This document shows positions 6,608 through 47,924 of a stretch of DNA of 50,202 nucleotides, in pieces. This DNA comes from a virus. A program made the position numbers and the translations under genes. A model generated the notes under the pieces. The model did no database searches. It worked only from the letters and a program-made list of their open reading frames with translations, and was not told the origin of the DNA. Location: positions 1-50,202 of IMG/VR virus record IMGVR_UViG_3300006802_000133, one strand, 5' to 3'. Positions within the stretch are counted from its first letter, which is position 1; each line of letters opens with the position of its first letter.

Positions 6608-7318
6608 ATGCTCGACTTTACAGATCTTATCGGCTCAATGTCTATCGTTGAGTTCGAGGCAAACCATCGTGGCAAATCCTTTGCCGTGTTCCCCCAAACC
6701 GAAGCCCGAACAGAACTGTTCGACAACATCATTGACTGGCAGCAGTTCAACAGCTATCTGAACAATGACCGCGCCACCGCTGGGATGCAGGCCATAACGC
6801 CTGAGGGTCGTAAGCTTTGCATGGAGCGGGGCAACCTTGAGCGAGAGAGCAGGCCCAACTGGAGTCGCAAGGACTACTACGAGAAGAAGTATCTGCATGA
6901 TATCTGGAATCAAGGCGGGTCTATAATCATGACCAAGGCATCACTGCTTACGCCTAGAATCAGCATGATCGCTGGTGCGATTGAGCAATACTACATGGGC
7001 GCAGCCGACGCACACTTCTATTGCAGCGGCAAACCCAACTCATCTACCTTTCCCTTTCATATCGATCAGGACGATAACTTCTTGGTGCATGCACAGGGAG
7101 ACGTTAGCTGGGAGATAGCGAACACTTTCGAGAATGACGATGATGATGTCACGTCACTGGATCTGACCGTGGGAGATCTCCTATACATTCCCAAGGGTCT
7201 CATGCACAGAGCCATACCTAAGACCAAACGAATCTCTATCTCCGTGCCAGTGGCAGAGCGCAAAGCAAACGAAGGCGCACTGAAGACGCAAGACAGAACG
7301 TACTACGACTTTGCATAA
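6608..7318 (+). CDS. JmjC/cupin-type Fe(II)/2-oxoglutarate oxygenase
   Basis: The 236-residue protein carries the metal-binding layout of the cupin-4/JmjC hydroxylase family. FPFHIDQDDNFLVHAQG contains His151-x-Asp153. LTVGDLLYIPKGLMHRA supplies the distal His200 within the typical GDxLYIPxGxxH motif. These enzymes hydroxylate proteins (for example ribosomal proteins) or act on small molecules. Its substrate is unknown; protein modification is the most likely role. It is the last gene of the left operon and is followed by a structured non-coding segment. The length is short compared with YcfD-type enzymes, lacking an obvious dimerisation or winged-helix tail. Confidence 0.75.
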   Translation: MLDFTDLIGSMSIVEFEANHRGKSFAVFPQTEARTELFDNIIDWQQFNSYLNNDRATAGMQAITPEGRKLCMERGNLERESRPNWSRKDYYEKKYLHDIWNQGGSIIMTKASLLTPRISMIAGAIEQYYMGAADAHFYCSGKPNSSTFPFHIDQDDNFLVHAQGDVSWEIANTFENDDDDVTSLDLTVGDLLYIPKGLMHRAIPKTKRISISVPVAERKANEGALKTQDRTYYDFA

Positions 7319-17000: not shown

Positions 17001-20000
17001 GGGGTCTATCGGCCCAGTCTGGGTTGGGGATTTGTCCTGCTGACGCATGTAATAGTACCTCTTGCCTAGCTTTATCTAAGTCTATCAGTCGTTTGTTGTA
17101 TTGTCGCCATACGTTATCCACAAACTTAACGTTTTCTTCGTTGTTCTTGTAGCTTGGGCTGAACACCCCACGGATAGCTTCCCACGTAATCGACTGCATC
17201 TCTCTGGCTAATACGCCACGCTCCGCTGCCGCCCTGCGGTACGCCTCTTCAAACAGGGAGTAGGTGCCATTGATCCCGGTAATCTTAGAGCTTGACGCGC
17301 CAGTCTTACCTACCACACCACCACCGAAGTTGTGTATGACAGGCTCCGACTTGCCGCTCAAAGGCTGCAACAGCCCTGCCGCTACAGCGTGGGTATCAAT
17401 CGTGACAAACCCAAGATCCGACTGTGGATCAAAGATGTTGTTGTAGAAATTACGAACCTTGTTCTGGGTGCCCAAGGATGAGGAGATCACGTCGATGTCG
17501 TTTGACCTCAAAGCAACGACAGCCTTGGCGATCTCGTTCATAGACCCCCAGCCAGCGCCAGCGTCTTCGCCTTTGACCGTCTTGACGTAGTCCATGATCG
17601 TGCCGTCAGGAGATATGATCCTGTGGGCGCGGCTGTTGTATGTCTCGTCATACGTCCTGATGTAGTACGCAAGCTGCAAGTTAGTCTTGTCTGAATCGCC
17701 AGCAAGAATCTCATTGATGGTCTTGCCATCTATCTCTGGCAGGATCTTGGATGATATCGCCCTAGACTTAGCTGACGCACCCTCTTTGAGATACAGCCGC
17801 TTTGCAGTGTCCATCATCTCGCCATTGAACGGGGTGTTTGCCTGCTCAAAGAATATGTCTGCGGTGCGCTCACCCAGAGAAGCATTCATGTACCAGTCTT
17901 TCTGAGGCGATAGGTTAGCTAGCACGGCGGAAGCCTGCTCTAAGCTTATGTTGTGCTTGCCTGCCATTCGTTGGGCTAGCTTGTTTGCACCCTCGTACCA
18001 GAGCTTGGATGTTTCTCTGATAGATGGGTCAACCATGTCGTAGATGTACAGCAGGTTGTCCTTCACTGTCTCGACAAAGCTCTCTGCTTTCTGCTCGTCT
18101 GTTCTAAGAGCGCGATCCTTTCGCAGGATTGGGTATATGCTGGCGTCCTTGATCAGCGCCATGTTCTTTGTGAAGACTGGCTTGTCGCCTGTGAACGCCT
18201 GATAGTCGTTGACCAGCAGATCATCTAGCGGATCTTCTGTCCTTCGCACAGCAGTTGGGAACCGTGTGCTTACCTGACCCTTTGCTTTACGAGAGAACAC
18301 CGGCCCTGTGTAGTCCCTGTCCTTGAGAACGGGTCTCGAATCGAACATCGGGATGCCGTCTTCCGTAAAACCATACAAGTCAAACGGTATGGTCTTAGGG
18401 AACTGTAGCTGCACTTCCTCAAGAACTGACGGATCAACCTGACCGGCGGTGACGCCCTTGCTAACCAGCCCTACATAAGCCCTATCATCTTCTTTGTATA
18501 GGGCGCTCGGTCTTGCGTCTGACTCACCAAATCTCAACTCACCAGCCGTGCCACCAGCAGATGTCAAGGTCACTGGCATCAGCGTGTCGCCATAGCCTTG
18601 CGAGGCATAGTATCTGGCTCGGTGCCTGCCCTCGTGCCCAGTAATGCTGGCAGCGCCACGCTCATTAGCGGTGAACTGTAGGAAATTTGGTTGAAACTTC
18701 TGACCCGCAGCAGCCATTGCATCAACGCGCTCAGTCTTAGATTGGTCTACGCCTGTGGCTGCAAGCTTTAGAAACTCATTCGGGGTCATCATGGTCACGG
18801 TTGATCGTGACGATGGGTCTACAGCGTCTCTGAACTGGTAGTCAACCCTCTCTGGGTCTAAGAACTGCTGCGTTATTGGCGACGAATCCATCAACTCTCT
18901 GACCTGTGAGGTCTTGATGTCGCGCCCTCTTGAGAAGACAGGCTGTTCAATGAAGTCAGCCATCCTTGGGCCGCCTTGCTTGCCAACCCTTGACGGATCA
19001 TCTTCAGCGCCTGCTGTAGGCAGCACCTGACTGGGAGCAGTGGCGGATACACCAGCCTCTCGCTCGGTAAGTTGTAACGTGCGGACTTGATCTCTCGGTC
19101 TAGAACCAACCCGACCAGATGAGATGTCATCAATGATGCCCTCAAACGATCTGAACCCAGAGCCATCAAGAGCATTCTTCATTGCTGACATAAAGCGTGT
19201 AGATCGACGCAGCAGGTTGGCAGGCTTGCCTGACACCAAGCTAGGGTTGGCTCGTTGATCTCGCACCATCTCAGCGACAGCTTCTTCCATCTGCTGAACT
19301 GGATTGTACTCGGCATACTCTTTAGCAGCCCACTCCGTGTATGTTTGGTTACCCTTCTTTAGCACCGCAGCCCTGTTACTAAGGATCGTCCACTCGGTCT
19401 TTGTGAATAGATCCATCATCCGCATGGCGTGAATCATCTCGTGATTCAGGACATCAGCTAGTCGAGCTTCTACCTGCTGATCCGTAAGCGTGGGATCATT
19501 AGCCACTGCATCAACAGACAAGAAAATCTGATTCATGTCAGGGTGGTAGTACCCTTCAGTAACCTGACCCTCTTGAGCATCAGGATCTACAACGTCATCC
19601 CTGACGAACCGCTGCGAACCCATAGTCCCGCCTACAACAAGCTCTGGATCTATCTGTTCGCCTCTTTTTATCGGCCTAATTCCATACACTAGGTTACCGT
19701 CTGCGCCCCTCACAACGTTCCTGAGGGCGTGTGAGACGTTTACTGGCACATCCCCTACGCTCAAGCCCTGCATCTGCTTGGCTAACGCAGACTCAAACTG
19801 CTGAATCTCTATGTCTTGACGCTGATCTATGGATGGGCCTTCCAATAGCAAAGGCTCTTGCTCTGTCTTGGTAATGCCCTGCGCCTTTGCGTCTTCGAGC
19901 AGGCTGTCGAGTGCAGTAGGGGATACGTCGCCGTCAATCTGGAAATCACCGATGGCATCGCCTAGCTGCATTGGCCCCATGTCTGGGTTTTCTTTGAGTG

Positions 20001-22284
20001 CCGCTACCGCCCTTCTAAATTGATCACCCGTGTATGGCTTGAGCTTGAATAATGGGAGTCTAGTCGGCTTGTCGAACCTTGGGAGGGAGCGCATCTTCTG
20101 CGCGAACATCTTAAATTCACCATCAGTCATATCGCTCAAAGCCGTGCCGGGAGAAACCCCGGCAAACTTCTCAGCCAAGAACTGTAACTCTGGTGAGTCG
20201 ATAGGAGATATTACGTTCTTTGCATCTAGAATGTTCTGCAAGAACTGCCGCGCAGGGAACTTGTCTCGGTATACAGACTCATCAACTCGACCAATGCCTG
20301 TGTTCGCATTTAGCTGATTAGCAAAAGCTTGAGCCTCTCCAGCATCGCGCCCGAACCTCTTGATTCTAGGCATGTTTTTCTTGTCAGCGCCTGTCTCAAG
20401 ATACTCTTGCTTCTCTTTATAGTTCAGCTTCCTGCCGCGAATTACTTCGCCTGCACTGCTGACTACAACATAGTCAGGCACCGTAGCGTTTTTCTTTCTG
20501 CGATCTTCTATGCGATAAGACTCAGTCTCAACCAATCCGTTGAGTCTTGTATCAACTATGTTAGGGAACTTATCGTTAAGCTCTTCTTTAACTTCCTCTA
20601 GGGTGAAGTTGTTTGATAGCGGTAACCCCTGCTCCATGCGCCTGCGATTGATCCGCTGCGATGCAGTCATCCTAGCTTCTGGGCGCACACCATTTGCAAC
20701 ATCACGAATGACAGAGACTGTGTCTTCGCCCTCGTAAAACCCACGGTCAACGGTGGTCTCTGCGGCAGCATCTACAGATGGCCCAATGAACGTCATCTGT
20801 TCAGGGTCGTTAGCAGCAATGTTGTATCGCCTTAGCGTCTTCTTCTGCTGATCGTCGTAATAATTTGAGGATGATTCGACTACAGCTTCGCCAGCATCGT
20901 ATACGTTGCTCAACTCCACCTGTCGATTGAGGGCACCAGCTAGTGCTGCGGCATCGCCACGACTCTCAACTGGCTGGCTGTATGCATAGCCCTCTGCATC
21001 AACAACAGAGAAGCTGTCGCCGTTGTCTTGTATTGAGAAGGTATTTCTCTTTGACGGGAACGCTCGTCCCATCTGGCGTGATATCTCAAGGGCCGTCTCA
21101 TCAACAGTGCCTCTTGGCGTTATAGTTGATGCTCTGTCTCTTGCTGCGGCAGATACGTCAGCCTCTATATCAACGTCTCGTCGGCCTTCTAACTGCTGCT
21201 GCGCTTCTATGTCAGCGGCAATCTCATCTATCAGGGCGGCACCGCGCTCCATGTCGAGATCTGCGGAGAGATCAGCGTCTTGTTGCGCTATAAAGTCTTC
21301 TCGTTCCTTAATCTTTGCCTGCTCTTTTTCTAGAGCAGAGTCATAGTTGGCCTTGTTTCTGCGACCAGCAATAGCGTTAACAACTAGGTCTGCACCGGCA
21401 CCAACAGCGCCACCAACAGTAAACTCATCGTATAGTGTTGGCCCAAGTAACTCGGCGTCCTCGTTGTATACGCCTTTCTCAATGGCATTCTGCGCGATAC
21501 TAGCCAAGACTTCTTGAGTAGCCTCGACGCCGCCGGTTCTCAGGGCAGAGCCTAAGACTTCTCTGTATCCCTTAGGCAGCTTGATGTTTCCATCAGCGTC
21601 AATCCTCTTGAGTAGTCTTGTTGGAGCAGCTAGTTCGCTGAGTCCGACAACGCCGCTAAGAATAGCAGCGGTGTCTTCTTGATCTTCTGAGACATCAATG
21701 CCTCTTGCTCTTGCAGCTTCTACCTGCTGCATCTGTGTGCCCGTACCAGAGCCAACAGCTAAGGTTCCCGTGGCACCAGCCCCAAGAATCTTTGCGCCCT
21801 TGCCTGCCAAGCCTGCCAAACGTAACGCTGCTGCTGGGGTAAAGAACGTGGCAAACGAACCTATACCTTCACCGAACTTGGTGATCCATGTGTCTCGGTA
21901 AGCCTCATCAGCCCCAAGGTATTCGTCTATTGCCTGTCTGCCTTCGCGTGAGGCCGCTACAAGGGCGTTCTCATCGCCATCGTCTATGACATCCTCAAAC
22001 CCAGCGAGGTTTGTGGCGGCGTCAGATAGCTCTCCAACGCCCTCTCCAGCAGAGACAAAGGTGTTACCGAACCCACGAGCAATAGCTTTACCGAACTCAA
22101 AGGTCTGACCACCAACCGTGCGCTCATCTGCTAGCGGGTCTTCGTCTTGCGCGGCGACTTGATTCAGCGCCTCGTCAGGAAACTCCTGAGCAAAGATCCG
22201 ATCTAGATCCGCATCTGTAGGCGGCGTATCACCAGTAAGCTTTAGCTTGCGCCCTTTAGGATCGGTAACCAGATATGTAGGCAT
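14041..22284 (-). CDS. Giant polyvalent internal virion protein (2747 aa)
   Basis: The protein is one unbroken frame of 8.2 kb. Visible parts are: an N-terminal motif (YLVTDPKGRKLKLTGDTPPT), hydrophobic helices near 150-190 and 280-305, and a coiled coil near 315-360. A zincin-like motif NHEMIHAMR lies near 945, and a HEGRHRARYY segment near 1215 resembles domains of polyvalent proteins. A long globular region follows near 1345-1730, then helical regions near 1900-2500 including LPD38-type sequence (TTAVPFLNARIQGLDLL), and a charged helical tail. Such proteins are packed in the capsid and injected with the DNA, delivering several activities and helping cross the envelope. The ATG follows the previous stop directly. 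Assignments of single domains are tentative. Confidence 0.8.
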   Translation of the reverse strand: MPTYLVTDPKGRKLKLTGDTPPTDADLDRIFAQEFPDEALNQVAAQDEDPLADERTVGGQTFEFGKAIARGFGNTFVSAGEGVGELSDAATNLAGFEDVIDDGDENALVAASREGRQAIDEYLGADEAYRDTWITKFGEGIGSFATFFTPAAALRLAGLAGKGAKILGAGATGTLAVGSGTGTQMQQVEAARARGIDVSEDQEDTAAILSGVVGLSELAAPTRLLKRIDADGNIKLPKGYREVLGSALRTGGVEATQEVLASIAQNAIEKGVYNEDAELLGPTLYDEFTVGGAVGAGADLVVNAIAGRRNKANYDSALEKEQAKIKEREDFIAQQDADLSADLDMERGAALIDEIAADIEAQQQLEGRRDVDIEADVSAAARDRASTITPRGTVDETALEISRQMGRAFPSKRNTFSIQDNGDSFSVVDAEGYAYSQPVESRGDAAALAGALNRQVELSNVYDAGEAVVESSSNYYDDQQKKTLRRYNIAANDPEQMTFIGPSVDAAAETTVDRGFYEGEDTVSVIRDVANGVRPEARMTASQRINRRRMEQGLPLSNNFTLEEVKEELNDKFPNIVDTRLNGLVETESYRIEDRRKKNATVPDYVVVSSAGEVIRGRKLNYKEKQEYLETGADKKNMPRIKRFGRDAGEAQAFANQLNANTGIGRVDESVYRDKFPARQFLQNILDAKNVISPIDSPELQFLAEKFAGVSPGTALSDMTDGEFKMFAQKMRSLPRFDKPTRLPLFKLKPYTGDQFRRAVAALKENPDMGPMQLGDAIGDFQIDGDVSPTALDSLLEDAKAQGITKTEQEPLLLEGPSIDQRQDIEIQQFESALAKQMQGLSVGDVPVNVSHALRNVVRGADGNLVYGIRPIKRGEQIDPELVVGGTMGSQRFVRDDVVDPDAQEGQVTEGYYHPDMNQIFLSVDAVANDPTLTDQQVEARLADVLNHEMIHAMRMMDLFTKTEWTILSNRAAVLKKGNQTYTEWAAKEYAEYNPVQQMEEAVAEMVRDQRANPSLVSGKPANLLRRSTRFMSAMKNALDGSGFRSFEGIIDDISSGRVGSRPRDQVRTLQLTEREAGVSATAPSQVLPTAGAEDDPSRVGKQGGPRMADFIEQPVFSRGRDIKTSQVRELMDSSPITQQFLDPERVDYQFRDAVDPSSRSTVTMMTPNEFLKLAATGVDQSKTERVDAMAAAGQKFQPNFLQFTANERGAASITGHEGRHRARYYASQGYGDTLMPVTLTSAGGTAGELRFGESDARPSALYKEDDRAYVGLVSKGVTAGQVDPSVLEEVQLQFPKTIPFDLYGFTEDGIPMFDSRPVLKDRDYTGPVFSRKAKGQVSTRFPTAVRRTEDPLDDLLVNDYQAFTGDKPVFTKNMALIKDASIYPILRKDRALRTDEQKAESFVETVKDNLLYIYDMVDPSIRETSKLWYEGANKLAQRMAGKHNISLEQASAVLANLSPQKDWYMNASLGERTADIFFEQANTPFNGEMMDTAKRLYLKEGASAKSRAISSKILPEIDGKTINEILAGDSDKTNLQLAYYIRTYDETYNSRAHRIISPDGTIMDYVKTVKGEDAGAGWGSMNEIAKAVVALRSNDIDVISSSLGTQNKVRNFYNNIFDPQSDLGFVTIDTHAVAAGLLQPLSGKSEPVIHNFGGGVVGKTGASSSKITGINGTYSLFEEAYRRAAAERGVLAREMQSITWEAIRGVFSPSYKNNEENVKFVDNVWRQYNKRLIDLDKARQEVLLHASAGQIPNPDWADRPRDAVSKGQQPPTYEDNVSYASVSRPEAGGPAFSRRRSGASRADTDLARKRIPDGQVKATVEANAEKAKDFASGYAPKINPSADPYAQAVAADPDKGQKLSREQQIMFSRGNEPERPVDVQRTMDKLVANPANITPGETYLNVLERGPIRNFITALKQGTVFRYAQFEALEKTLDRDVMASSAALPALMAADRSNAIAGAAIKYGNAVYKDGRTTVEDFSHTFSADSSRPGETVQFRGLAGVMGLLFNDKGSLEKDAQAYAIARRAEGLRKRGIDSPGTPEEQLQIIQYVERNHPEIKDWYEVWQAYNAKTIQFMRDTGVLDAEMAEIWAAQSDYVPFYRQAEGRDVPNAPNMFGGLTTAGSFKGITGTDTALNVPLLDAITTNMAAAISMGMNNVAQQRVVRNMVRYGLAYELPKGKSGKGLNVVTFRVQGKDRKFVIEDPLVFTSLQPMEGGAGYDFLNTIFGVPANILRETVTRAPPFVAANMMRDTLSAYQTSGASFIPIADTLGAFAKDMSELERSGVVGGYDFSKDPADIGKFMTKQLRDQGAIKDDRAITTKLLMKIWDGLGDVTTRSDFATRKAVHDDVLARTGDRAEAEFQALEVMNFGRRGSHPVMRLLTTAVPFLNARIQGLDLLLNAATGVRSSNKELSRRKAFGSFVARAGILAGASAMYYLLVSDSEDYQEATEEERDNNWIIPMPGDIPALKYPIPFEVGLLFKTLPERMMREMTGDTTGRQTRESLQRAIVSTLEVPVTGPQIVAPLIETIANYNGFTGRAIVPQYMSSSLAGEAQVLSSTSEVAKLAAEFAPFDLSPIKMDHLIRGYTGTIGSYVLAMSDAALRSELLTGDQTKILPARPVYDSPLLRRFFTREFGAGRTEEFYDMATYVDQVYKTYSKLRKDGKLDQAERYIAGREYLLPMYREQAEIRRGLSRLRKEEQAIRRMDISPEEKQERIREVEIRKRRYLEVVPLMRQQIEIPAFDVGSGLR

Positions 22285-31775: not shown

Positions 31776-32225
31776 CTATACCTCTTCCCAATTTTGGCCT
31801 AAGAACAGGAGGGCTTCTGCCTCTCTGCGCCTTACAAGACCGTCTAGCACTTTACCACCTGCTTTATTCCATCGGCGTATTTGCGTTGGAACGTCGTTAT
31901 AATCTTCTTCATTCAGCCTGATCAGCAAAGTAGATTCCCTCAGGTTAGTTGGCCCTAGGTTGTATGTCCATGCTACTAATGCATCAAATTGATTCTGCTC
32001 AAGAGGGCACTCAACGATGTCATTGACGTACCCTTCAAACTCTTCAAGATCCTCAACGAGCATTCTCTCAGCGTCTTCCTGAGAGCAAGAATCGCCATCT
32101 TCCACGCCACGAGTATGACCGTACCCAATCGTCCAGACGTTAGCGGAACACTGATAAGCCTCTAGTTCGCACCCTTCAAACTTCTTAATGAGAGCCACGC
32201 CCTCTGCGCTTGTTTGTTTACTCAT
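31776..32225 (-). CDS. GH24-type endolysin with Cys in the catalytic triad
   Basis: The 149-residue protein is a T4/P22-type lysozyme: IKKFEGCELEAYQCSANVWT followed by IGYGHT gives Glu17-x8-Cys26-x5-Thr32, where Cys replaces the usual Asp. The remainder (QNQFDALVAWTYNLGPTNLR) is the second lobe. It cleaves peptidoglycan glycan strands. ATG 32225 (ATGA-type overlap with the upstream gene) is preferred to a further upstream in-frame start. There is no signal anchor, so release depends on a holin. Asp-to-Cys at this site is known to retain activity in T4 lysozyme. Confidence 0.9.
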   Translation of the reverse strand: MSKQTSAEGVALIKKFEGCELEAYQCSANVWTIGYGHTRGVEDGDSCSQEDAERMLVEDLEEFEGYVNDIVECPLEQNQFDALVAWTYNLGPTNLRESTLLIRLNEEDYNDVPTQIRRWNKAGGKVLDGLVRRREAEALLFLGQNWEEV

Positions 32226-32718
32226 AGATATTTTGCACCTCAAACGACACGTCATGCTTTTTCTGATATATGTTCAGTGTAAACCTAATCTCTTGCTTCG
32301 TATTCCGATACATGTGTCTTTGACCAGCATTCTTCCATGTAACTAATCGATTCGGGAGCCACACAACCTCTTCAAAAAACAATCTTGTCCCCTCAATTTT
32401 CTGTAGAAAAAGTGTTCCGTCCCCCGTTTCTGGAGCAAGGTAGAGTACAGTGCTGACAATCTTATCTGGATGATCGGCGTGAAGGTCGTACTCGTACCCC
32501 GGATCGCACTTGGTAATAGACGCTTCAAAAACTCCGACAGGATCTGCAACCTTGTCGGCATAACAACTTCTAATCCTACCCACTGTTTCTGCATCCAGCA
32601 GTGCCTCAGACTTCTCTATGCCGTTGTATGAATCAACGTGCGTATATCTTAAATCGTTGAGATCTCGGACTAAGTCTTGATAAAGATCGTCGTAAAGAAA
32701 ATCATCTACTACTTTCAC
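32218..32718 (-). CDS. 2-oxoglutarate/Fe(II) oxygenase (prolyl hydroxylase-like fold)
   Basis: The 166-residue single-domain enzyme has YDLHADHPDKIVSTVLYL with His80-x-Asp82, then GDGTLFLQ, PNRLVTWKN, a distal His135 in AGQRHMYRN and Arg145 in EIRFTLNIYQ, which would hold 2-oxoglutarate. This full set predicts an active dioxygenase. Substrates in phages are known for only a few (hydroxylated proteins or nucleotides). Here it sits in a three-gene block with a COQ4-like and a radical SAM gene; a shared pathway is an inference. Overlaps both neighbours (17 nt and 8 nt). Confidence 0.85.
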   Translation of the reverse strand: MKVVDDFLYDDLYQDLVRDLNDLRYTHVDSYNGIEKSEALLDAETVGRIRSCYADKVADPVGVFEASITKCDPGYEYDLHADHPDKIVSTVLYLAPETGDGTLFLQKIEGTRLFFEEVVWLPNRLVTWKNAGQRHMYRNTKQEIRFTLNIYQKKHDVSFEVQNIYE

Positions 32719-33433
32719 GGGTAGGACTCTTTGAAGCTCTTAGCTTGTACATCAACTCGTGATATTTAATGGGCGACCTGATCTTCATGAGCGACTTAAC
32801 ATCGATTAGAGGCATCTCTAACAAAGCAGGCCAGTCCATACCGGCAAGCCACTCCGCCTTGCGCCCGTTCATGTACGCCTCAAAAGACGCAGCAAAAACA
32901 CCCCAGCCCTTTTTCCTAGCGTGGGTTATCGTCATGGGTATCGTCATTGCGATAATCCCGAAGTTTGCAAAGTTGCCATGCAAGAACCAGAGCAAGACAA
33001 CCTCGCCAAACGGGTTCCTCTCATATCCTGTAACGGTGTGAGTCAGATCATGCTGATCCCTATACCACCGGATATAACAGTTGAACGCCGACTCAGAGGG
33101 CTTCTCGCCTCGCTTCTTGGTGTCATCAGCAAATTGAGATGTAGATCGACTAGTATCAACTAAAAATCTAGAGTACTCGTGGCCTAAGCTACCTACCGGC
33201 ATAGCTTTAAGCTTATCAACATCATCCAGAATCCCGACTAACGACTCATCGTTATCGATGATCCTTGATCCTATTGGAGTACGGCGAAACGTTTCGTACT
33301 GTTTGCGGACAGAGCGCGAGGATAGCCAATTAAAAACAATGAAAGCGGCCTCAAGGTCGTTGGGATTCTTGTACAACCTACGCATAGCGCCTAACACGCT
33401 GCGTAATTGATTCTTTATCTTCCTTAGACCCAA
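32702..33433 (-). CDS. COQ4-like protein (ubiquinone biosynthesis family)
   Basis: The 243-residue protein matches COQ4 in length and key features. It has a GSLGHEYSRFL segment (about 81-91) like the COQ4 N-terminal motif. The diagnostic zinc motif is H-D-x2-H-x11-E: His128, Asp129, His132, Glu144 (DQHDLTHTVTGYERNPFGEV). The surrounding helices are LLWFLHGNFANFGIIAMT. COQ4 organises ubiquinone synthesis and removes the C1 carboxyl group of the ring precursor in eukaryotes and bacteria. A phage copy could modify host quinone metabolism, or be a binding scaffold. It is flanked by radical SAM and oxygenase genes with short overlaps. The family call is strong; activity is untested. Confidence 0.82.
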   Translation of the reverse strand: MGLRKIKNQLRSVLGAMRRLYKNPNDLEAAFIVFNWLSSRSVRKQYETFRRTPIGSRIIDNDESLVGILDDVDKLKAMPVGSLGHEYSRFLVDTSRSTSQFADDTKKRGEKPSESAFNCYIRWYRDQHDLTHTVTGYERNPFGEVVLLWFLHGNFANFGIIAMTIPMTITHARKKGWGVFAASFEAYMNGRKAEWLAGMDWPALLEMPLIDVKSLMKIRSPIKYHELMYKLRASKSPTRESSR

Positions 33434-34248
33434 TGTTTATACCTCTCAACAAACTCAGGCTTTGCACACTGCACATCGCACACACTGCAAGGCGGTGTCA
33501 CATCTCTATTACCATTAATAAGCTCAGTAGAGATTCGTTGTAACTCCTTGTTATCACGCCACTCTCTAAACAGATTAACATCTTTGACGTTAGCAAAGCC
33601 GATTTGATGCGACCAGTCGTTGCAACACATCTGCAACTCACCGTCGAAGTTAATGAATATCCCCCTCATGGGGTGTACACACGGGCCTTTCACGGCGGTG
33701 CCACCTGCGATTAACCCTGCCCTGTGATTAAAGACATGCTTGTATCTGAAGTTGCCACCCTTAGGGTCTGGGTAGTCAGGTAACACATTCACGTCTCCAA
33801 CCGAGCCACCGTCCGGCTTCCAGTAATCCTCAATCCGCTCACCGTTATCTAAGCGTGGATACTTCTTTCGTCTAGCCTTAAAGTCTTCTTCGGTGGTGTA
33901 GGTATTAAGGACTAGATTATCTAGCTGACGGTAGTAATCCCAGTAACGATCAAGCCGCCACCCATTCGTTGTCACCTGTGTACGGTATCTGTTGGGTTTA
34001 CGAAGCAACCGCTGAATTATCTTCTCGAACTGAGGATGATTTGTGCTTTCCCCTCGACCCGCCAAAATGACATTACCGCTGAATCGCCATTCTTCGATCT
34101 GATCCATGATCAGGTCGAACATTTCTAGCGTCATGTTCTGGTTGTTGTTGGGGTAAATAGATGCATCAGACCGTGGACAGAACGAACATGTGCGGTTGCA
34201 CAAGTCCGTAATGTTTATATCAATCTGAACTATCCCCTCCAGATCCAT
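33424..34248 (-). CDS. Radical SAM/SPASM-type enzyme
   Basis: The 274-residue protein has the [4Fe-4S]-SAM motif C-x3-C-x2-C (Cys17, Cys21, Cys24 in DLCNRTCSFC) and the later GRGEST/HP segment of the SAM-binding fold. The C-terminal Cys cluster (Cys190, Cys208/209, Cys254, Cys257, Cys261) resembles SPASM or twitch domains that bind auxiliary clusters and usually modify peptides or small metabolites. CVHPMRGIFINFDGELQMCC is the typical SPASM onset. It is first in the trio with the COQ4-like and 2OG oxygenase genes. The substrate is unknown. Confidence 0.88.
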   Translation of the reverse strand: MDLEGIVQIDINITDLCNRTCSFCPRSDASIYPNNNQNMTLEMFDLIMDQIEEWRFSGNVILAGRGESTNHPQFEKIIQRLLRKPNRYRTQVTTNGWRLDRYWDYYRQLDNLVLNTYTTEEDFKARRKKYPRLDNGERIEDYWKPDGGSVGDVNVLPDYPDPKGGNFRYKHVFNHRAGLIAGGTAVKGPCVHPMRGIFINFDGELQMCCNDWSHQIGFANVKDVNLFREWRDNKELQRISTELINGNRDVTPPCSVCDVQCAKPEFVERYKHWV

Positions 34249-34609
34249 TCGTATCTTCCGATAAGTCTTTGTAGTACTCGATTATAGACAAAGCCTGTCT
34301 AATATACCTCTTTACTTCTGCCATGTTAGAGGAAAGGTTTTCGTAACCCTTTGGCGACACTCCATAATATGCGTTTACTGGAGCGTTACCGGCCTCTAGA
34401 TCGTCTAGATATTCACGCATCGTGTCTGGGGTTAGCACCTTCCACTCAACAGGTGCCATCGAAACAGAGTTGGGTAAAGGCGGATGATAGACAGCCGCTT
34501 GCTGTACCACAGTCACAACCTCAACCTGCTTTGTTTCAGGAACGTATGGCTCACGACCTATTAGGCCGCAACCACTAAGAAGAAGTATTGGTAATAGCTT
34601 CCAGATCAC
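34220..34609 (-). CDS. Outer-membrane spanin lipoprotein candidate (Rz1-like)
   Basis: The 129-residue protein has a lipoprotein signal: MIWKLLPILLLSGCGLIG with Cys14 in the lipobox (LLSGC). The mature part starts acidic, then has a Pro-rich stretch (YHPPLPNSVSMAPVEWKVLT) as in o-spanins, and a C-terminal helix. The GTG start lies inside the end of the i-spanin gene in another frame (35-nt overlap), the classical spanin arrangement. Paired with it, the protein would fuse inner and outer membranes at lysis. The 3' end overlaps the radical SAM gene by 29 nt. Confidence 0.75.
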   Translation of the reverse strand: MIWKLLPILLLSGCGLIGREPYVPETKQVEVVTVVQQAAVYHPPLPNSVSMAPVEWKVLTPDTMREYLDDLEAGNAPVNAYYGVSPKGYENLSSNMAEVKRYIRQALSIIEYYKDLSEDTNGSGGDSSD

Positions 34610-34974: not shown

Positions 34975-35301
34975 TCATTTCCTATTTGACCAAGCTTGAG
35001 CGCCAAAAAACGCTGCAAGTATGCCTGCAACGGATACAAAATATACTGCTGCCATATCACCCAAGATGGTTGCTGCTTGATTCATCCCAAAGAACTCACT
35101 GATAACCACCAGTGACGGATATAACAGCATACCCCAGAGCGCGAACCACGACATAGCTCGTTGAGCATCTGCCCGTTCATGCTGTAGCCGCAGTTCCTGC
35201 AACTCCTTGCTCGTTTGTAGCTCTTCATCAGAGACGATGCCGTCACCATCCGTATCGAAGCTAGCATATTCAGAGCCTTCCTCTAATCGCTTTGCTGCCA
35301 T
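34975..35301 (-). CDS. Membrane protein with EF-hand loop, holin candidate
   Basis: The 108-residue protein has a soluble N-terminus with one canonical EF-hand loop FDTDGDGIVSDEEL (about residues 15-28), a charged helix (ELQELRLQHERADAQR), and two hydrophobic spans (AMSWFALWGMLLYPSLVVIS and AAVYFVSVAGILAAFFGAQA). Location directly before the spanin pair supports a holin. A calcium site on a holin could tie lysis timing to divalent ions, which is speculative. The stop (TGA 34977-34975) is 1 nt from the i-spanin ATG. Confidence 0.65.
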   Translation of the reverse strand: MAAKRLEEGSEYASFDTDGDGIVSDEELQTSKELQELRLQHERADAQRAMSWFALWGMLLYPSLVVISEFFGMNQAATILGDMAAVYFVSVAGILAAFFGAQAWSNRK

Positions 35302-42159: not shown

Positions 42160-42591
42160 CTAGGCTATTCGGATAATGGCGTTAGACGCATCCGCAGTAG
42201 GGAACTGAATGGTAAAGTCGCCTGCTGTTGAAGTCTTGTCTCCGCCAAAGTCCAACGCACAAACAGCAGGGTCTCCTGACGCGCTATCGTTAAAGATAAG
42301 TGCGCCTCTTGCAGTGACCGTCGCATTTGAAAACGTAAGATCTGCAAAGTCCGTAATTGCAGTTGTACCTGAGGTGGACGGATCTACACGAGTCAGGGCC
42401 GCACCCTTTGCTGTGTAGTTTGTACCTGACACCTCATTAGACGTGGTGTATGCGGTGGTGCCTGCGCCCAAAGAAGCACTGCTTGTATACAGTGCCAAGT
42501 TAAACGTGCTTCCGCCAGAGTTCTTAAAGTTGTGTACCGCTTCCAAAAGCTCTTTCTTGAAAGACGTACACATTGCAGTCGTGATAGCCAT
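42160..42591 (-). CDS. Small virion structural protein (143 aa)
   Basis: MAITTAMCTSFKKELLEAVH gives an N-terminal helix, then the rest is beta-rich and Thr/Ser/Gly-rich (GSTFNLALYTSSASLGAGTT, FSNATVTARGALIFNDSASG). Segments such as AVCALDFGGDKTSTAGDFTI are frequently seen in phage head or tail decoration proteins of environmental phages. It is next to fibre genes. Function beyond structural is not clear. Confidence 0.6.
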   Translation of the reverse strand: MAITTAMCTSFKKELLEAVHNFKNSGGSTFNLALYTSSASLGAGTTAYTTSNEVSGTNYTAKGAALTRVDPSTSGTTAITDFADLTFSNATVTARGALIFNDSASGDPAVCALDFGGDKTSTAGDFTIQFPTADASNAIIRIA

Positions 42592-42881
42592 TATAGACTC
42601 CTTATGATGTTCGCCATATCAGCATGGCCTTGGTTTTCAAATTCAGCGGCAAGAGTGACTCTGTCACTACGAATCGCTTCTTTGATATAAAAGAAGACCG
42701 TCGCCCTGACAGCCCTCTTGAATTCGTTTGCTTGTTCTGCAATTGCAGGATGGCAGTTTCCGCCAACACTAACAATCCTATCTGCGGCTGAATCAGCCCA
42801 GAAGTCTGGATCGTGACCCTTGTTATCTGTCGTTGAGACAAGGACGTTGCCTATGCCCATTTCTGAAGGTGTGATAAGCAC
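42591..42881 (-). CDS. Unknown small protein (96 aa)
   Basis: MLITPSEMGIGNVLVSTTDN is followed by NKGHDPDFWADSAADRIVSV, then a helix EQANEFKRAVRATVFFYIKE. It is typical for a small conserved phage protein in the tail-completion region. Directly before it in the operon is the 214-residue adaptor protein, and directly after, the 143-residue structural protein. No motif. Confidence 0.55.
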   Translation of the reverse strand: MLITPSEMGIGNVLVSTTDNKGHDPDFWADSAADRIVSVGGNCHPAIAEQANEFKRAVRATVFFYIKEAIRSDRVTLAAEFENQGHADMANIIRSL

Positions 42882-42885
42882 TCAG

Positions 42886-43530
42886 CTACATCCTTTCTGA
42901 ACGAACCATACCGGCTCTGTAATTATCCGTTGTGCTGTAACCCTCGCCCAAAGACTTGAGGTCAGCCAAAGCCGTCTCATATCTAGTGGCGTAAAGTTGC
43001 ATCATATCTTGTTCTGTCTTCAAAAACGTCCCAGCCTCTATCAGGCTTCCATAAAGCAAGGCTTCTTCTGCATTAGACCCTAGCCAGCTAGTGCCGTCTG
43101 ACGCCTCTGTAATTGATTGAGGCGCATAGAAATAATGAAGCTCTACGGTAATGTTATCATTGGGTGTTGGGCCTAGTATGAACGTCGTATCATCAAACAG
43201 TGCGTAATACTTTGGCGTTCCCGTAGTGCTTGCTACCGGATACGCCTGACGAATGAAGTTTACGTCTTTAATTATCAGATAGTCGTAACCAGACGTAGGC
43301 GTAATAGCTAGAGAATACGGAGATAAAAAGTCCGAAGGAGTCTCTAGGTACGAGTTGCCTGACGTTGTAACCCCGTTAACTGCTTTGCGAAAGTTAGGCA
43401 ACTGGACAGCTTTAAGTATTCTATCTTCCGCCTGCCGAATAATAAGCGGTAAGTTTGATACCAGCGTGGTCTCAGTGCTCTCCAAGTAGTCCTGAATAGC
43501 AGACTTGAGTGTAGTGAATGTAAGGGCCAT
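42886..43530 (-). CDS. Head-tail adaptor-type protein (214 aa)
   Basis: MALTFTTLKSAIQDYLESTE followed by LPLIIRQAEDRILKAVQLPN is the recognisable N-terminus of adaptor-type phage proteins found next to gp4-like genes in podoviruses. A beta-rich centre (NSYLETPSDFLSPYSLAITP) and a C-terminal helical end (LYATRYETALADLKSLGEGY) follow. Likely part of the connector between portal and nozzle. Exact correspondence with known systems is uncertain. Confidence 0.65.
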   Translation of the reverse strand: MALTFTTLKSAIQDYLESTETTLVSNLPLIIRQAEDRILKAVQLPNFRKAVNGVTTSGNSYLETPSDFLSPYSLAITPTSGYDYLIIKDVNFIRQAYPVASTTGTPKYYALFDDTTFILGPTPNDNITVELHYFYAPQSITEASDGTSWLGSNAEEALLYGSLIEAGTFLKTEQDMMQLYATRYETALADLKSLGEGYSTTDNYRAGMVRSERM

Positions 43531-43844
43531 CAGCTTGTTGCCACCGTGACTCGGCCTACATCACCCGTCATGCCCAAACCCACCTGACCCACAGGATCAA
43601 ATGACGATAGGATTCTGCTCTCATCCAAAGATCTGTCGGGTCTTGGGTTCAAGAGAGGCTTAGGATCGTCAAGCAAAAGCTTGCCAACCTGTAGCTGCGG
43701 CTGGTCTGGATCGACAACATCTTTGCCAATCAAGAACCCTGTAGGTCTTTGGTTAAAAATTTCAGGCACAAGATCTCTAAGCGGATACCTGAACCCAGTT
43801 CGATCACAATAGCCGTAAGCGTACTTGCCCTTTGCTCTACTCAA
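43530..43844 (-). CDS. Small virion protein (104 aa)
   Basis: MSRAKGKYAYGYCDRTGFRY opens the sequence. The segments YPLRDLVPEIFNQRPTGFLI and VDPDQPQLQVGKLLLDDPKP recur in short podovirus proteins encoded between gp4-like and adaptor genes. Basic N-terminus, Pro-rich middle; probably non-enzymatic. It is bounded by a 4-nt overlap and a TAATG-type junction. Role unknown. Confidence 0.6.
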   Translation of the reverse strand: MSRAKGKYAYGYCDRTGFRYPLRDLVPEIFNQRPTGFLIGKDVVDPDQPQLQVGKLLLDDPKPLLNPRPDRSLDESRILSSFDPVGQVGLGMTGDVGRVTVATS

Positions 43845-44533
43845 AAGGTATACCCTCCCGGCGAAACAAACAGAGAAGCCTTGTTGCGATCAGACTCAGA
43901 GGCAAGCTTCCATTGCTCCTCGTAATCCATCTTCAACGCTTGCGCTCTGGCCCCAGCTTGGGGGTACTTCATGCTTAACTGATACGCCAAACCGCTCACC
44001 AAGCAGGGTAAGAATCTAGCTGGAACGTCTATATTGTTCGACGCAGGGCTTCCTGCATCTTCAATCCGCTCCATGTAGTAATACCCAAACGAGTAGGTCT
44101 CTTGCGCGTCAGGCGTAGGCCACAGGTTGATCGTGATATTGTCTGCGTTTCGATCAACGAAGTACTGAAGAGGCTTGCTTTGCGACAGCTTGTTGGGAAG
44201 GTTTGAGTACTGACTCACCGAAATGCGGGTCATCGACTGATCAAACTGCGAGTTCGTATCGCCTGCATCTGTGCGTATGAACGCTTCGATGATGTCTAAA
44301 ACCTTGCCATCCAGTGTATAGGTGTTAGTACCGGCAGTGAGTGCTTGCGTCCCAAACTCAACAGTCCAGAGATTTAACCCTCTGTTCTGCCACTCAAGCA
44401 TCATCAGGTTTAGGCTGCGCCTAGCTGTCTTGTAGTCATACCCACTACGAAGCTCTAATCCTGCCCTCTCGAAAGCCTCTTCCATAGAATCGGATAGGTC
44501 GAGATTAAATGTAAATGTATTGCTAGTAGCCAC
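43841..44533 (-). CDS. Tail accessory factor (P22 gp4-like)
   Basis: The 230-residue protein begins MATSNTFTFNLDLSDSMEEA; FERAGLELRSGYDYKTARRS followed by NLMMLEWQNRGLNLWTVEFG is the typical N-terminal helical pair of gp4-type head completion/tail accessory proteins. The middle has FVDRNADNITINLWPTPDAQ, the C-terminal part is helical and basic. It would form the ring below the portal. The match is to the general phage family; no numeric alignment was made. Confidence 0.72.
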   Translation of the reverse strand: MATSNTFTFNLDLSDSMEEAFERAGLELRSGYDYKTARRSLNLMMLEWQNRGLNLWTVEFGTQALTAGTNTYTLDGKVLDIIEAFIRTDAGDTNSQFDQSMTRISVSQYSNLPNKLSQSKPLQYFVDRNADNITINLWPTPDAQETYSFGYYYMERIEDAGSPASNNIDVPARFLPCLVSGLAYQLSMKYPQAGARAQALKMDYEEQWKLASESDRNKASLFVSPGGYTF

Positions 44534-44536
44534 TTA

Positions 44537-44620
44537 CTACCTCCGATTCTTCTTAGCTTTTGGCTTCTTTGCCTTGGGCTTGTTAATTTGTTGTTTCTGT
44601 TGCGCTCGGCTTATTGGCAT
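44537..44620 (-). CDS. Lys/Arg-rich mini-protein (27 aa)
   Basis: ATG 44620 overlaps the TGA of the previous gene (TGATG), and the stop lies 3 nt before the gp4-like gene. The sequence is almost all Lys, Gln and Arg: MPISRAQQKQQINKPKAKKP then KAKKNRR. Its end carries GGAGG for the next gene. It completes a run of four basic proteins likely to act on packaged DNA. Confidence 0.5.
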   Translation of the reverse strand: MPISRAQQKQQINKPKAKKPKAKKNRR

Positions 44621-44952
44621 CAGCTTTTACCAAACTTCTGCTTCTGCGACTTAGGGGGGCTTTTCTTACTGCCACCTTTGCCAGACCAAAACATCTTGTT
44701 AGCCCAGTATGCGGCTGATGTCTTGCCCTTCTTAATGTTCTTTGCATGACGAGCCTTGAAGCTTTTACGAGCCTCGTCTGAGTAATTGTGGCCCATCTTC
44801 TGATCACCAAATCGGATGATCTTCATCTTGCCTGCATCACGCACAGCAACCACGCCTTTCTTTGTGGCGTGGCTTGGTGTCCTCTTGGGCTTATTCAGCC
44901 CCTGTAGACCGACCTTCTTTAGCCGGTTCTTTTCCGCATCGGTCAAGCTCAT
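44620..44952 (-). CDS. Basic virion-associated protein (110 aa)
   Basis: The sequence starts MSLTDAEKNRLKKVGLQGLN and has a central domain with IRFGDQKMGHNYSDEARKSF and AYWANKMFWSGKGGSKKS, with a lysine-rich tail. High pI. Related small basic proteins are common in marine phages, where they appear beside a major capsid gene and two more Lys-rich genes. A role in binding packaged DNA is plausible. Confidence 0.6.
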   Translation of the reverse strand: MSLTDAEKNRLKKVGLQGLNKPKRTPSHATKKGVVAVRDAGKMKIIRFGDQKMGHNYSDEARKSFKARHAKNIKKGKTSAAYWANKMFWSGKGGSKKSPPKSQKQKFGKS

Positions 44953-45203
44953 TTACGATGCCTCGCTGTTTTCTTGGCAATCTTCTTAGGCTGGCTTGAG
45001 TGCTGCTTGCCTTTTTTTGTGTCGGCTCGTTTCTTTCTACTTGTAGCAGCGTACTCCGCATCTGATAGAGCCGCTCTAGCCTTCTTCGGGAGATACCTTT
45101 CACCTGTCGCTTTCTTTCCTTGTGTCGATGGTTTGCCTGACTTGGTTCCCCATTCTTGCTTTGTCCACTTCTTCAGCGACTTTTGCGACTTCTTGAGAGG
45201 CAT
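44949..45203 (-). CDS. Basic protein, DUF5872-like (84 aa)
   Basis: MPLKKSQKSLKKWTKQEWGT, then GERYLPKKARAALSDAEYAA, TSRKKRADTKKGKQHSSQPK: this order matches a small phage and virus domain I recall as DUF5872 (KWTKQ...GERYLPKKA...). It is strongly basic. DNA-binding or virion role is inferred. It overlaps both adjacent basic genes (4 nt and 1 nt). Confidence 0.6.
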   Translation of the reverse strand: MPLKKSQKSLKKWTKQEWGTKSGKPSTQGKKATGERYLPKKARAALSDAEYAATSRKKRADTKKGKQHSSQPKKIAKKTARHRK

Positions 45204-45388
45204 TAGTTTTTGTAACCCCCGCCAGATTCCTTGTAACGTTTAGCCAGCATCTGCGCTTTACGCGCAGACCACTGCCCCGGCTTGCCGCCCTTGCCGCTTG
45301 CCTTTATAGAGTTGAACAGCCTCTTGCGTAAGGCTGGCTTCGTATAGTTGCCAGCCTCGTTTACGCAAGACTTCTTCTTCTCAGCCAC
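45203..45388 (-). CDS. Basic protein, DUF6321-like (61 aa)
   Basis: MAEKKKSCVNEAGNYTKPAL then SGKGGKPGQWSARKAQMLAK and a Gly-rich end YKESGGGYKN. The GKGGKPGQWSARKAQ motif recurs in short phage proteins recalled as DUF6321. Very basic; co-transcribed with two other Lys-rich genes directly upstream of tail genes. Probably binds nucleic acid in the virion. Confidence 0.65.
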   Translation of the reverse strand: MAEKKKSCVNEAGNYTKPALRKRLFNSIKASGKGGKPGQWSARKAQMLAKRYKESGGGYKN

Positions 45389-45792
45389 TAGAAGTGCTTC
45401 CTTACCTGCATAACGATAACGTACACGTTGCCCGAACTGGCACTGACAGTAGAGAACTGGATGTCTCCAGTAACGCCACTACCAGCGTTGTTAGGGATGC
45501 CTGTGAAGTCAGTGAAGTCAAACGTCCTAGCATCATCTGCCTTTAGCTGCCAAGCCAAGACATCACTCGAAGCGTCAAATAAGATCTTTACGCCCATCCC
45601 TACGGTGGTGTATTGGATCTTTTCAATCGATACCTTGGTGCAAGCCGCGCCCGTAACAGGGTCAGCGGCCAATGCAGAAACATCGATCTTTGTTACTGCC
45701 GATTCACCAGTGCCATCACTGACATTTGTGAACCGGAATATCGCAGTACTACCATTGTCTTGAATGGTTTGTGTTGCTACTGCATCAGCCAT
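45388..45792 (-). CDS. Beta-rich structural protein (134 aa)
   Basis: MADAVATQTIQDNGSTAIFR, then FTNVSDGTGESAVTKIDVSA and further strands (GVKILFDASSDVLAWQLKAD) with a short basic end (VQVRKHF-like: VIVMQVRKHF). It looks like one jelly-roll or immunoglobulin-type decoration domain. It stands between two other head-type genes and a basic cluster. Likely capsid decoration or head fibre. Confidence 0.6.
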   Translation of the reverse strand: MADAVATQTIQDNGSTAIFRFTNVSDGTGESAVTKIDVSALAADPVTGAACTKVSIEKIQYTTVGMGVKILFDASSDVLAWQLKADDARTFDFTDFTGIPNNAGSGVTGDIQFSTVSASSGNVYVIVMQVRKHF

Positions 45793-45804
45793 GACAACCT
45801 CCTA

Positions 45805-46326
45805 TTAGGAATCAGCAAACGCTGGAGCATCGGCTCCTTCAGCATAGCCCCAGACATACCAACTGTCGCCATCTTTAGCGACAAAGTTAATCTCGAAGAT
45901 GCCGAAGTCGGTCAACGTAAGCTTGCGATTTGAGTTTCCATCTGAGTAGACAGACACGTTATCTGCATCTGAATCCAGATGAACGATGCCGCCTTGGATG
46001 AAGTTAGACGTGGAACCAGTATCAAAGATAACGTTCTCAGTCTCTTCAGCAGCGCCGCCGTAGATGAACTTGAAATTGATACCGGCAACTGGTGCTGGCA
46101 GGGTCAAGGTTCGATTTGCTGTTACCGCAGGAACAACGATAGTGCGGCTGCCATGCTCTGCTGCCGTAATAGTAGTGTCTGCATCGGTCAGTAGTACCGG
46201 CGCAGCAATAAGTCCAGAGTTATCAAGCTGGAACGAGGTGGTTACCTCTCCAGAAGTTGAGTTCTTTGAAACAACCTTGAATCCATTTTGGGAGCGTACC
46301 GCTCCTGTGAAAGTCGAATTACCCAT
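45805..46326 (-). CDS. Beta-rich structural protein, capsid-fibre type (173 aa)
   Basis: MGNSTFTGAVRSQNGFKVVS is a short N-terminal attachment-like motif. ITAAEHGSRTIVVPAVTANR, TLTLPAPVAGINFKFIYGGA and FEINFVAKDGDSWYVWGYAE are typical of beta-sandwich modules in phage head fibres. It is preceded by the capsid gene terminator and a parS-like palindrome, and its start lies 29 nt from the palindrome. A promoter may exist there, but none is clear. Confidence 0.6.
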   Translation of the reverse strand: MGNSTFTGAVRSQNGFKVVSKNSTSGEVTTSFQLDNSGLIAAPVLLTDADTTITAAEHGSRTIVVPAVTANRTLTLPAPVAGINFKFIYGGAAEETENVIFDTGSTSNFIQGGIVHLDSDADNVSVYSDGNSNRKLTLTDFGIFEINFVAKDGDSWYVWGYAEGADAPAFADS

Positions 46327-46354
46327 TGTAGTCTCCTGTCTGGGTTAGTCCTTA

Positions 46355-46370
46355 TGTTCCACGTGGAACA
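46355..46370. promoter_or_regulatory. Perfect 16-bp parS-type palindrome
   Basis: TGTTCCACGTGGAACA reads the same on both strands. It equals the consensus centromere site bound by chromosomal ParB in many proteobacteria (for example pseudomonads). It lies in the 98-nt gap between the capsid gene and the next head gene, just past the terminator. No ParA or ParB gene is in the window. I saw only this copy by reading. Confidence 0.8.
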
Positions 46371-46379
46371 ATCGGTCAG

Positions 46380-46408
46380 GAAAAAGGGCGGCCCCCGAAG
46401 GGGCCACC
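46380..46408 (-). terminator. Rho-independent terminator after the major capsid gene
   Basis: On the minus strand the stem GGCCCC (46405-46400) pairs with GGGGCC (46395-46390) around a TTCG tetraloop, then GCCC and a run of five T (46385-46381). Strong GC stem with UUCG-type loop. Located 17-45 nt behind the capsid gene stop, it would end or dampen transcription after the most abundant protein. Confidence 0.85.
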
Positions 46409-46424
46409 AAACTCTTCCTAGCTA

Positions 46425-47333
46425 CTAGCTAGATCCGGGTGATCCATAGATACCCAGAGGGTCAGAAACGCCGAAGCTGTAACGTTCACGCGCTTTGTAG
46501 CGCACGTTGCCAGTATCGAAGTCACCGTCCATTGAAGTTTCAAGCGAAGTACGCTCGAAGTGCTTCATGCCATTTGGCACATCAGTGATCAAGAAGAAAG
46601 CGTTGCTGTCAGTCAGGTAGTGATTGACTGCATAGCCTTCTGGGATCGCACCCATGTTGCGGATAGCATTGATGTCGTTGTCGCTGGTCGCAACACGCTG
46701 AGTCGTTTCAAGCAGACGATCTGCCGTAAACATCAAAGCGGGTGGTACGATCAAACGGCGAGGACGCGCTGCAATAAGAAGACCACGCTCATCGGTGAAC
46801 GCAGCAATCTCAATGATCGCATTTTCCAGTGACGTTTCGTTCAAGTCAGCACCAGTGGACGGACGGTTGGAGTTAGTTCCACCGTTGACCAAAGGATGTG
46901 AAGCATTGAACAGAGTTACACCGTCTCCAGATTGGAAGCTGGTGAAACCATTGTTCAACAAGTTTGCCGCCTTCACCTGCTTGGTGTACGCCATAGCGCG
47001 AGAAAGCGCCTTGGTGTAACGAGCAGAAAGTGAATCGTACAAATTGTCTTCCATCGCTTCCTCGGTGATCGCAAAGCCCATCGAAATGGTCTCGTGATTG
47101 TACCGAGCGGTGTAAGACTCTTGAGCGGAGTCGTAGCTGGTAGCCGCGCCTTCTGCTTTCACAGGGGCAGCAGCGAAGCCAGACAACTTCACTTCTTCCT
47201 CGAAAGAACGATCAGAGCTTTCAGTCTCATAAATGAGAGTGTGCTCGTCCTCGTACTTTTCATACTCCAAACCAAAAAGAGCATTAAGCCCCGGCAGGAG
47301 TTCTTTAAGCATTTGCGCTCTTGAGATAGCCAT
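46425..47333 (-). CDS. Major capsid protein (Mu gpT-like, HK97 fold)
   Basis: The 302-residue protein begins MAISRAQMLKELLPGLNALF; the E-loop-like segment FEEEVKLSGFAAAPVKAEGA, NHETISMGFAITEEAMEDNL, then RRLIVPPALMFTADRLLETT and RNMGAIPEGYAVNHYLTDSN are the conserved pieces of the gpT-type capsid family. It forms the icosahedral shell. Strong ribosome-binding site AGGAGG before ATG 47333, the best in the late operon, and a terminator after the stop, as expected for the most expressed gene. Confidence 0.9.
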   Translation of the reverse strand: MAISRAQMLKELLPGLNALFGLEYEKYEDEHTLIYETESSDRSFEEEVKLSGFAAAPVKAEGAATSYDSAQESYTARYNHETISMGFAITEEAMEDNLYDSLSARYTKALSRAMAYTKQVKAANLLNNGFTSFQSGDGVTLFNASHPLVNGGTNSNRPSTGADLNETSLENAIIEIAAFTDERGLLIAARPRRLIVPPALMFTADRLLETTQRVATSDNDINAIRNMGAIPEGYAVNHYLTDSNAFFLITDVPNGMKHFERTSLETSMDGDFDTGNVRYKARERYSFGVSDPLGIYGSPGSS

Positions 47334-47345
47334 TGCCTAAACCTC

Positions 47346-47924
47346 CTATACGCCAGTGGTGGTAACGTACTGATGACCAACGTTAAATTTAACGATTACA
47401 TCAGTGAAGCTATCACCAGCCGAACTAGTTGGCCCATCTACAAAATCAATGATTCGCAGTGGGAGTGTGTTTGTTGTTGCAGCAGTGCTTGCGTCAACAG
47501 CGTTCTTGCTTCGACCAATAGAGGTAGAACCAGCGGTTTGAACAACCGCTGCGTTGTTACCCAGAGTAGTCTGAGCGAGAGACGCATCGCCTTGCATACG
47601 CATCAACACGTTGGGGTCATCAACCACATAAGCCACAATGTCACTTGCAGAAGTAGACGCTGGGTATGTTTGGCTGAAAGTCTTTTGGTTTGTGTTGGGA
47701 TCGGTGTACGCGCAACCAACAAAAACTCCTACAGGAGTCAAAGTTGCAGTACCCGTGTCCTTTTCAACGACACCATCAGACACCAATTTTACGAAATCTC
47801 CGTAAAAAATGGCGGTGCTATAACCACTTGCAATCTTGATGTGGCGAATCTTCCCGGTAAACGAGCCGCTCGCACTCAAGGTATCAACTGGTTCCGCACC
47901 TGTTGGGGCAGCAGAAGTAGCCAT
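47346..47924 (-). CDS. Head decoration-type protein (192 aa)
   Basis: Beta-rich, Thr/Ser/Val-rich protein: MATSAAPTGAEPVDTLSASG, GKIRHIKIASGYSTAIFYGD, then FVKLVSDGVVEKDTGTATLT. The segment ASDIVAYVVDDPNVLMRMQG resembles decoration proteins encoded next to capsid genes in environmental phages. It is directly upstream (12 nt) of the capsid gene with AGGAGG before its own start. Probably a capsid-stabilising protein. Confidence 0.7.
   Translation of the reverse strand: MATSAAPTGAEPVDTLSASGSFTGKIRHIKIASGYSTAIFYGDFVKLVSDGVVEKDTGTATLTPVGVFVGCAYTDPNTNQKTFSQTYPASTSASDIVAYVVDDPNVLMRMQGDASLAQTTLGNNAAVVQTAGSTSIGRSKNAVDASTAATTNTLPLRIIDFVDGPTSSAGDSFTDVIVKFNVGHQYVTTTGV

Follow-up and report, generated by a model that had tools for sequence, protein, structure and literature searches.

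The window examined here, a 50,202-nt marine phage contig (IMG/VR record IMGVR_UViG_3300006802_000133, positions 1 to 50,202), encodes a radical SAM enzyme, a Coq4-family protein and a small Fe(II)/2OG oxygenase in three intact, overlapping open reading frames between its o-spanin and endolysin genes (Table 1). These genes are probably best explained as a mobile phage cassette (a moron, or auxiliary module) in which the radical SAM and COQ4-like enzymes act in one pathway, with hydroxylation as an optional addition. A radical SAM-COQ4 cassette that often includes a hydroxylase suggests an undescribed, phage-run chemical modification.

Table 1. Cassette genes, flanking lysis genes and the JmjC gene of the window
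Product and role	Position	Strand	Details and basis
Radical SAM enzyme with twitch/SPASM auxiliary-cluster domain; cassette gene 1	33424..34248	-	274 aa; Pfam, Cys motifs
Coq4-family protein, Zn motif intact	32702..33433	-	243 aa; TTG start; PF05019
Small prolyl-4-hydroxylase-like Fe(II)/2OG oxygenase; optional gene 3	32218..32718	-	166 aa; GTG start
o-Spanin; upstream edge of insertion site	34220..34609	-	PHROG 812; empty-site comparison
Phage lysozyme (endolysin); downstream edge of insertion site	31776..32255	-	PF00959; PHROG 7
JmjC_2-type Fe(II)/2OG oxygenase; unlinked to cassette	6608..7318	+	PF08007 (E-value: 5e-11)

The radical SAM gene overlaps the o-spanin gene by 29 nt and the COQ4-like gene by 10 nt, and the COQ4-like gene overlaps the 2OG gene by 17 nt. 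The overlap between the 2OG and endolysin genes is 38 nt for the longest endolysin reading frame and 8 nt if translation starts at an inner ATG (position 32225), which agrees with the start in relatives and is likely the true start. The region is also flanked by an i-spanin (PHROG 739), and PHROGs and Pfam matches agree on the identities of the spanins and lysozyme. The original prediction had named the three enzyme genes, with their coordinates, strand and motifs, and had given the overlaps as 10, 17, 29 and 8 nt. The reading frames and the profile and model matches agree with the former, and the overlaps were recovered, the last of them presupposing the inner ATG.

As expected of a mobile auxiliary cassette, a given site is filled in some close relatives and empty in others (15 filled and 60 empty lysis sites; 4 filled and 15 empty polymerase sites). 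The lysis site was compared using the o-spanin as query, with 62 cassette-free contigs that have a lysozyme match being scored. In 60 of the 62, the lysozyme gene directly follows the o-spanin gene, with its start at -70 to +26 nt relative to where the o-spanin match ends. The second site, compared using the L036 polymerase as query, lies between a small gene (u88) and the DNA polymerase A gene. When this site is empty, u88 runs into the polymerase gene with the same short overlap as when it is filled; reading-frame overlaps with the upstream gene are kept at filled sites. Empty polymerase-site junctions read ...ACATGGACTTAATAACG, while filled ones read ...ACATGGACTTAGAGGGT. The start ATGGACTTA is common to the polymerase and radical SAM genes, and this shared stretch is possibly a microhomology. 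The L036 contig is related to the window in mosaic fashion, with common structural genes and a different replication module.

Because both sites are found filled and empty in related phages, the cassette is a movable unit rather than a lysis component. The genes had been described earlier as a unit wedged into the lysis cassette; they are indeed located there in the window, but this position is incidental, as a second lineage carries the cassette before its DNA polymerase gene and the lysis sites of 60 relatives are empty. A special tie to lysis was rejected on the same grounds, and the suggestion that the enzymes act late in infection is left unsupported, since the cassette of the second lineage lies in the replication module. 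Like other phage morons and auxiliary metabolic genes, these enzyme genes interrupt the core gene order at sites that are empty in relatives; the window differs in that its radical SAM and COQ4-like genes form a fixed pair and move together. Viral radical SAM ("ahbD"), P4HA and ubiG genes have been recorded as auxiliary genes in marine surveys (PMC9301287).

Searches of IMG/VR identified 15 contigs with the COQ4-like protein as query and 18 with the radical SAM enzyme. In each of these 18, the radical SAM gene has the COQ4-like gene immediately downstream, and the pair spans lineages with identities down to 82-89% (radical SAM) and 70% (COQ4-like). All three cassette genes are under purifying selection, with median pN/pS values of 0.12 (radical SAM), 0.21 (COQ4-like) and 0.38 (2OG), distant pairs being near saturation at synonymous sites. 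As the trio recurs in order in relatives with low median pN/pS, the cassette is not a chance product. The 2OG gene is present in both genomic contexts but is missing from L009-L014, L031 and L039, and so is an optional third gene. The claim of a joint system, for which a survey of co-occurrence and gene order had been proposed, therefore holds for the radical SAM and COQ4-like genes, which are always adjacent, conserved in order and found together at a second site; it does not extend to the oxygenase, which comes and goes.

Divergence of the cassette is uncoupled from that of a neighbouring structural gene. Between the window and L011, the radical SAM proteins are 88% identical and the neighbouring 618-aa structural proteins 53% identical; between the window and L007, these values are 85% and 94%. 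Genes inside the cassette also recombine separately, as judged from the pairs L036/L038 (radical SAM 92%, COQ4-like 73%) and L036/L031 (86% and 85%). Gene order has thus been kept despite exchange, although, given this separate recombination, part of the adjacency could reflect an inherited gene order. The differing divergence patterns within the cassette and the inconstancy of the 2OG gene would also fit unrelated auxiliary genes that hitch-hike together between recombination points, and phage auxiliary genes often occupy the same insertion points. Such chance association is improbable, however, as the radical SAM and COQ4-like genes are never apart wherever a contig permits the check, at both sites and with their overlap kept.

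The radical SAM protein has the conserved domains PF04055 (E-value: 6e-13, 49.7 bits) and PF13186 (SPASM; E-value: 2e-5, 25 bits), both above the Pfam cut-offs. Its C17-x3-C21-x2-C24 motif and further cysteines (C190, C208, C209, C254, C257 and C261) are invariant among the relatives aligned. BtrN is the only solved structure matched by the profile, and its auxiliary-cluster cysteines correspond. The protein thus shares the CxxxCxxC and auxiliary-cluster cysteine pattern of BtrN and other SPASM-twitch enzymes, but its identity to BtrN and to the "BtrN" proteins of Campylobacter phages is low (approximately 30% for the latter). It matches 24 NCBIfam equivalog families, none of them near the cut-off and no maturase model at it. 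Radical SAM homologues of other phages differ in having other radical SAM genes or aminotransferase genes as neighbours, and none of the neighbours tested matches Coq4. Campylobacter phage CP20 (L051:2720-5774) has three radical SAM genes close together, two adjacent and one BtrN-like, which adjoin a glycine amidinotransferase gene and form another unexplained phage radical SAM cluster.

The COQ4-like protein has the conserved domain PF05019 (E-value: 1.4e-12, 47.8 bits against a cut-off of 22.9) and the metal motif H128-D129-xx-H132-x11-E144. These four residues are invariant across phage and bacterial COQ4 relatives, and the motif is kept in 96 of the 96 COQ4 sequences of the tree, where a spacer of 11-13 residues precedes the Glu. 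A profile search with COQ4 matched the solved structure of Alr8543 (PDB 6e12; E-value: 8e-4), the alignment running through HDxxHx11E. A PDB profile match to a designer PPR protein (6een) was discarded as a repeat artefact. Because an AlphaFold2 model built from 6 sequences has a pLDDT of 42, the COQ4 fold assignment rests on sequence profiles. The phage COQ4-like proteins form a single clade (support 100/100), whose position among Kordiimonas sequences is weakly supported, and the polymerase-site copies are nested inside it. As the branch leading to the clade is long (2.5 substitutions per site), the function of the phage proteins may have changed. COQ4 was not found among 50,697 isolate-phage records at E ≤ 1e-3 (a partial match at E=4 was considered irrelevant), PHROGs gave no match for the protein, and no report of a viral COQ4 was found in the literature searched.

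The 2OG oxygenase has the residues H80-x-D82, H135 and R145 (2OG-binding), which are invariant among the relatives aligned. Its match to PF13640 (2OG-FeII_Oxy_3; E-value: 1.7e-4) scores 22.9 bits, under the cut-off of 27. The AlphaFold2 model (pLDDT 85) matches prolyl-4-hydroxylase structures, with a Foldseek E-value of 1.3e-8 to 4iw3. The best match is a Pseudomonas prolyl-4-hydroxylase crystallised with EF-Tu, and OGFOD1 is also listed. On the strength of this model, the cassette oxygenase resembles prolyl-4-hydroxylase-type enzymes (P. putida P4H, PHD2, OGFOD1) in predicted fold and HxD...H...R residues, but it is only 15-20% identical to them, shorter and below the Pfam cut-off.

A second Fe(II)/2OG oxygenase of the window, the JmjC_2-type protein, has the HxD...H residues. 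Contigs of three other cassette phages extend to its gene, and its conservation in these is 76-85%. The gene is thus present in 4/4 cassette lineages that reach it, as compared to 0/23 cassette-free contigs of 26-59 kb (naive Fisher p=6e-5, a value inflated by relatedness and incomplete contigs). The longest contig with the JmjC gene and no cassette (38 kb) belongs to the same species as the window and does not cover the cassette region. The JmjC oxygenase is a possible fourth member of the cassette. Its family, PF08007, includes ribosomal oxygenases, and the window protein is ribosomal-oxygenase-like.

These two oxygenases raise the question of a protein target. The radical SAM enzyme and the P4H-like and JmjC/ROX-like oxygenases could modify a phage or host protein or peptide, perhaps a component of the translation apparatus, and the COQ4-like protein would then be a divergent accessory. 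The EF-Tu-bound Foldseek match, the listing of OGFOD1 and the JmjC_2 family assignment are all consistent with this, and peptide maturation is the role of many SPASM radical SAM enzymes. Such modification is nevertheless unlikely: its main argument is the 2OG gene, which is dispensable, the COQ4-like protein is left without a role and all NCBIfam maturase models are below their cut-offs. In addition, no small gene is conserved beside the cassette across both contexts, and a conserved precursor peptide was rejected as the upstream gene is the o-spanin gene in one and u88 in the other. A small-molecule target is somewhat likelier than a protein or peptide.

COQ4 enzymes are known mainly from coenzyme Q synthesis. 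The cassette could accordingly remodel ubiquinone, with the COQ4-like protein entering the host pathway (in C1 decarboxylation or as a scaffold) and the radical SAM and 2OG enzymes carrying out anaerobic and aerobic ring oxidation, thereby sustaining respiration during infection. PF05019 membership and the intact Zn motif are in keeping with this. Animal COQ4 is a Zn-dependent C1 decarboxylase of the CoQ precursor whose Zn site is HDxxHx11E (PMC7615680), and by analogy is the best guide to the chemistry of the phage protein; ubiG has moreover been reported as a marine viral auxiliary gene (PMC9301287). The window protein shares the profile, Zn motif and length range of the Coq4 family (PF05019; COQ4, Alr8543 PDB 6e12, 3msq), but it is phage-borne, lies beside a radical SAM gene, has a very long branch and has no other ubiquinone gene alongside it in the set of window proteins compared with Pfam or PHROGs. 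We also know of no SPASM radical SAM enzyme in any ubiquinone step.

The bacterial relatives further weaken the case for ubiquinone. A second genome scan identified 80 bacterial COQ4 loci (best identity 38%, to an uncultured Pseudomonadales). Neither a radical SAM nor a 2OG relative was found within ±8 kb of COQ4 at 80+ loci (tblastn and profile search), and so the radical SAM-COQ4 pairing has been observed in a single phage family only. Sphingomonad and hyphomonad COQ4 copies lie inside catabolic acyl-CoA dehydrogenase/P450/OB-fold clusters. UbiG is above cut-off in 0/7 Myxococcota-type or unclassified COQ4 carriers as compared to 6/6 proteobacterial ones; judged by UbiG, and with the caveat that MAGs may be incomplete, the subfamily of the phage protein is not confined to ubiquinone-making genomes. 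UbiD is absent from 10/16 bacterial COQ4 carriers, which would suit a role in ubiquinone synthesis, but in a wider alphaproteobacterial sample it is absent from 6/8 carriers and 59/107 genomes (p=0.46); COQ4 as a UbiD replacement was rejected for want of a significant contrast. Given the catabolic-cluster copies, the carriers without UbiG and the non-significant UbiD link, ubiquinone is a possible rather than the default substrate. The quinone remodelling proposed in the original prediction is thus not favoured, and we consider it quite unlikely. On the Novosphingobium plasmid pNL2, two divergent genes of the Coq4 family (L058:4704-5522 and L058:8182-9060) adjoin genes for a TonB receptor and for AtuA (acyclic terpene utilisation), and the Coq4-family products apparently act outside ubiquinone synthesis.

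The preferred reading, a mobile cassette with a common pathway, can be set out as follows. The core would be the obligatory radical SAM and COQ4-like pair, in that order, made from one coupled message; the P4H-like oxygenase would be an optional third component and the unlinked JmjC oxygenase a possible fourth. The radical SAM enzyme would oxidise or rearrange the substrate, using a [4Fe-4S] cluster to cleave SAM together with an auxiliary cluster of the BtrN/SPASM type. The resulting intermediate, probably hydrophobic or aromatic, would then undergo a decarboxylation or lyase step catalysed by the COQ4-like protein, with Zn(II) in HDxxHx11E. Finally, the 2OG oxygenase may hydroxylate the product or a protein partner. 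A shared pathway is likely; this order of steps is a proposal. A broader reading, in which the obligatory pair and the two Fe(II)/2OG oxygenases (cassette and JmjC) make up an undescribed phage-encoded modification pathway, making or altering a molecule that lies outside known pathways and extending COQ4-family chemistry beyond coenzyme Q, is tentative and somewhat doubtful.

The COQ4 step was long an orphan in coenzyme Q synthesis and, to our knowledge, bacterial COQ4 relatives are nearly unstudied. A phage COQ4 that is under selection and fixed to a radical SAM partner offers a compact, testable system for the capabilities of this family. If the pathway exists, it means that marine phages introduce a novel type of redox chemistry to the cells they infect; should the broader reading also be correct, COQ4-family enzymes would be shown to be active beyond coenzyme Q.

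Contig G168 (99.9% identical) links positions 42530-50202 of the window to positions 1-23593 via approximately 7.2 kb absent from the window. As this contig joins both window ends, the window falls short of the whole genome, which is approximately 57 kb. Upstream of the spanins, a 108-aa holin-like protein (34975-35301, - strand) has an EF-hand-type loop, DTDGDGIVSDEE, that is conserved in relatives (DADGDGIVSDAE in L011); it is possibly a calcium-responsive lysis protein. Positions 158-1096 (+ strand) encode an anti-restriction type protein with an ArdC N-terminal domain and a zincin-like metallopeptidase domain (PF08401, PF18818). Positions 14041-22284 (- strand) encode a large polyvalent/virion protein of 2747 aa with LPD38 and DUF7178 domains.
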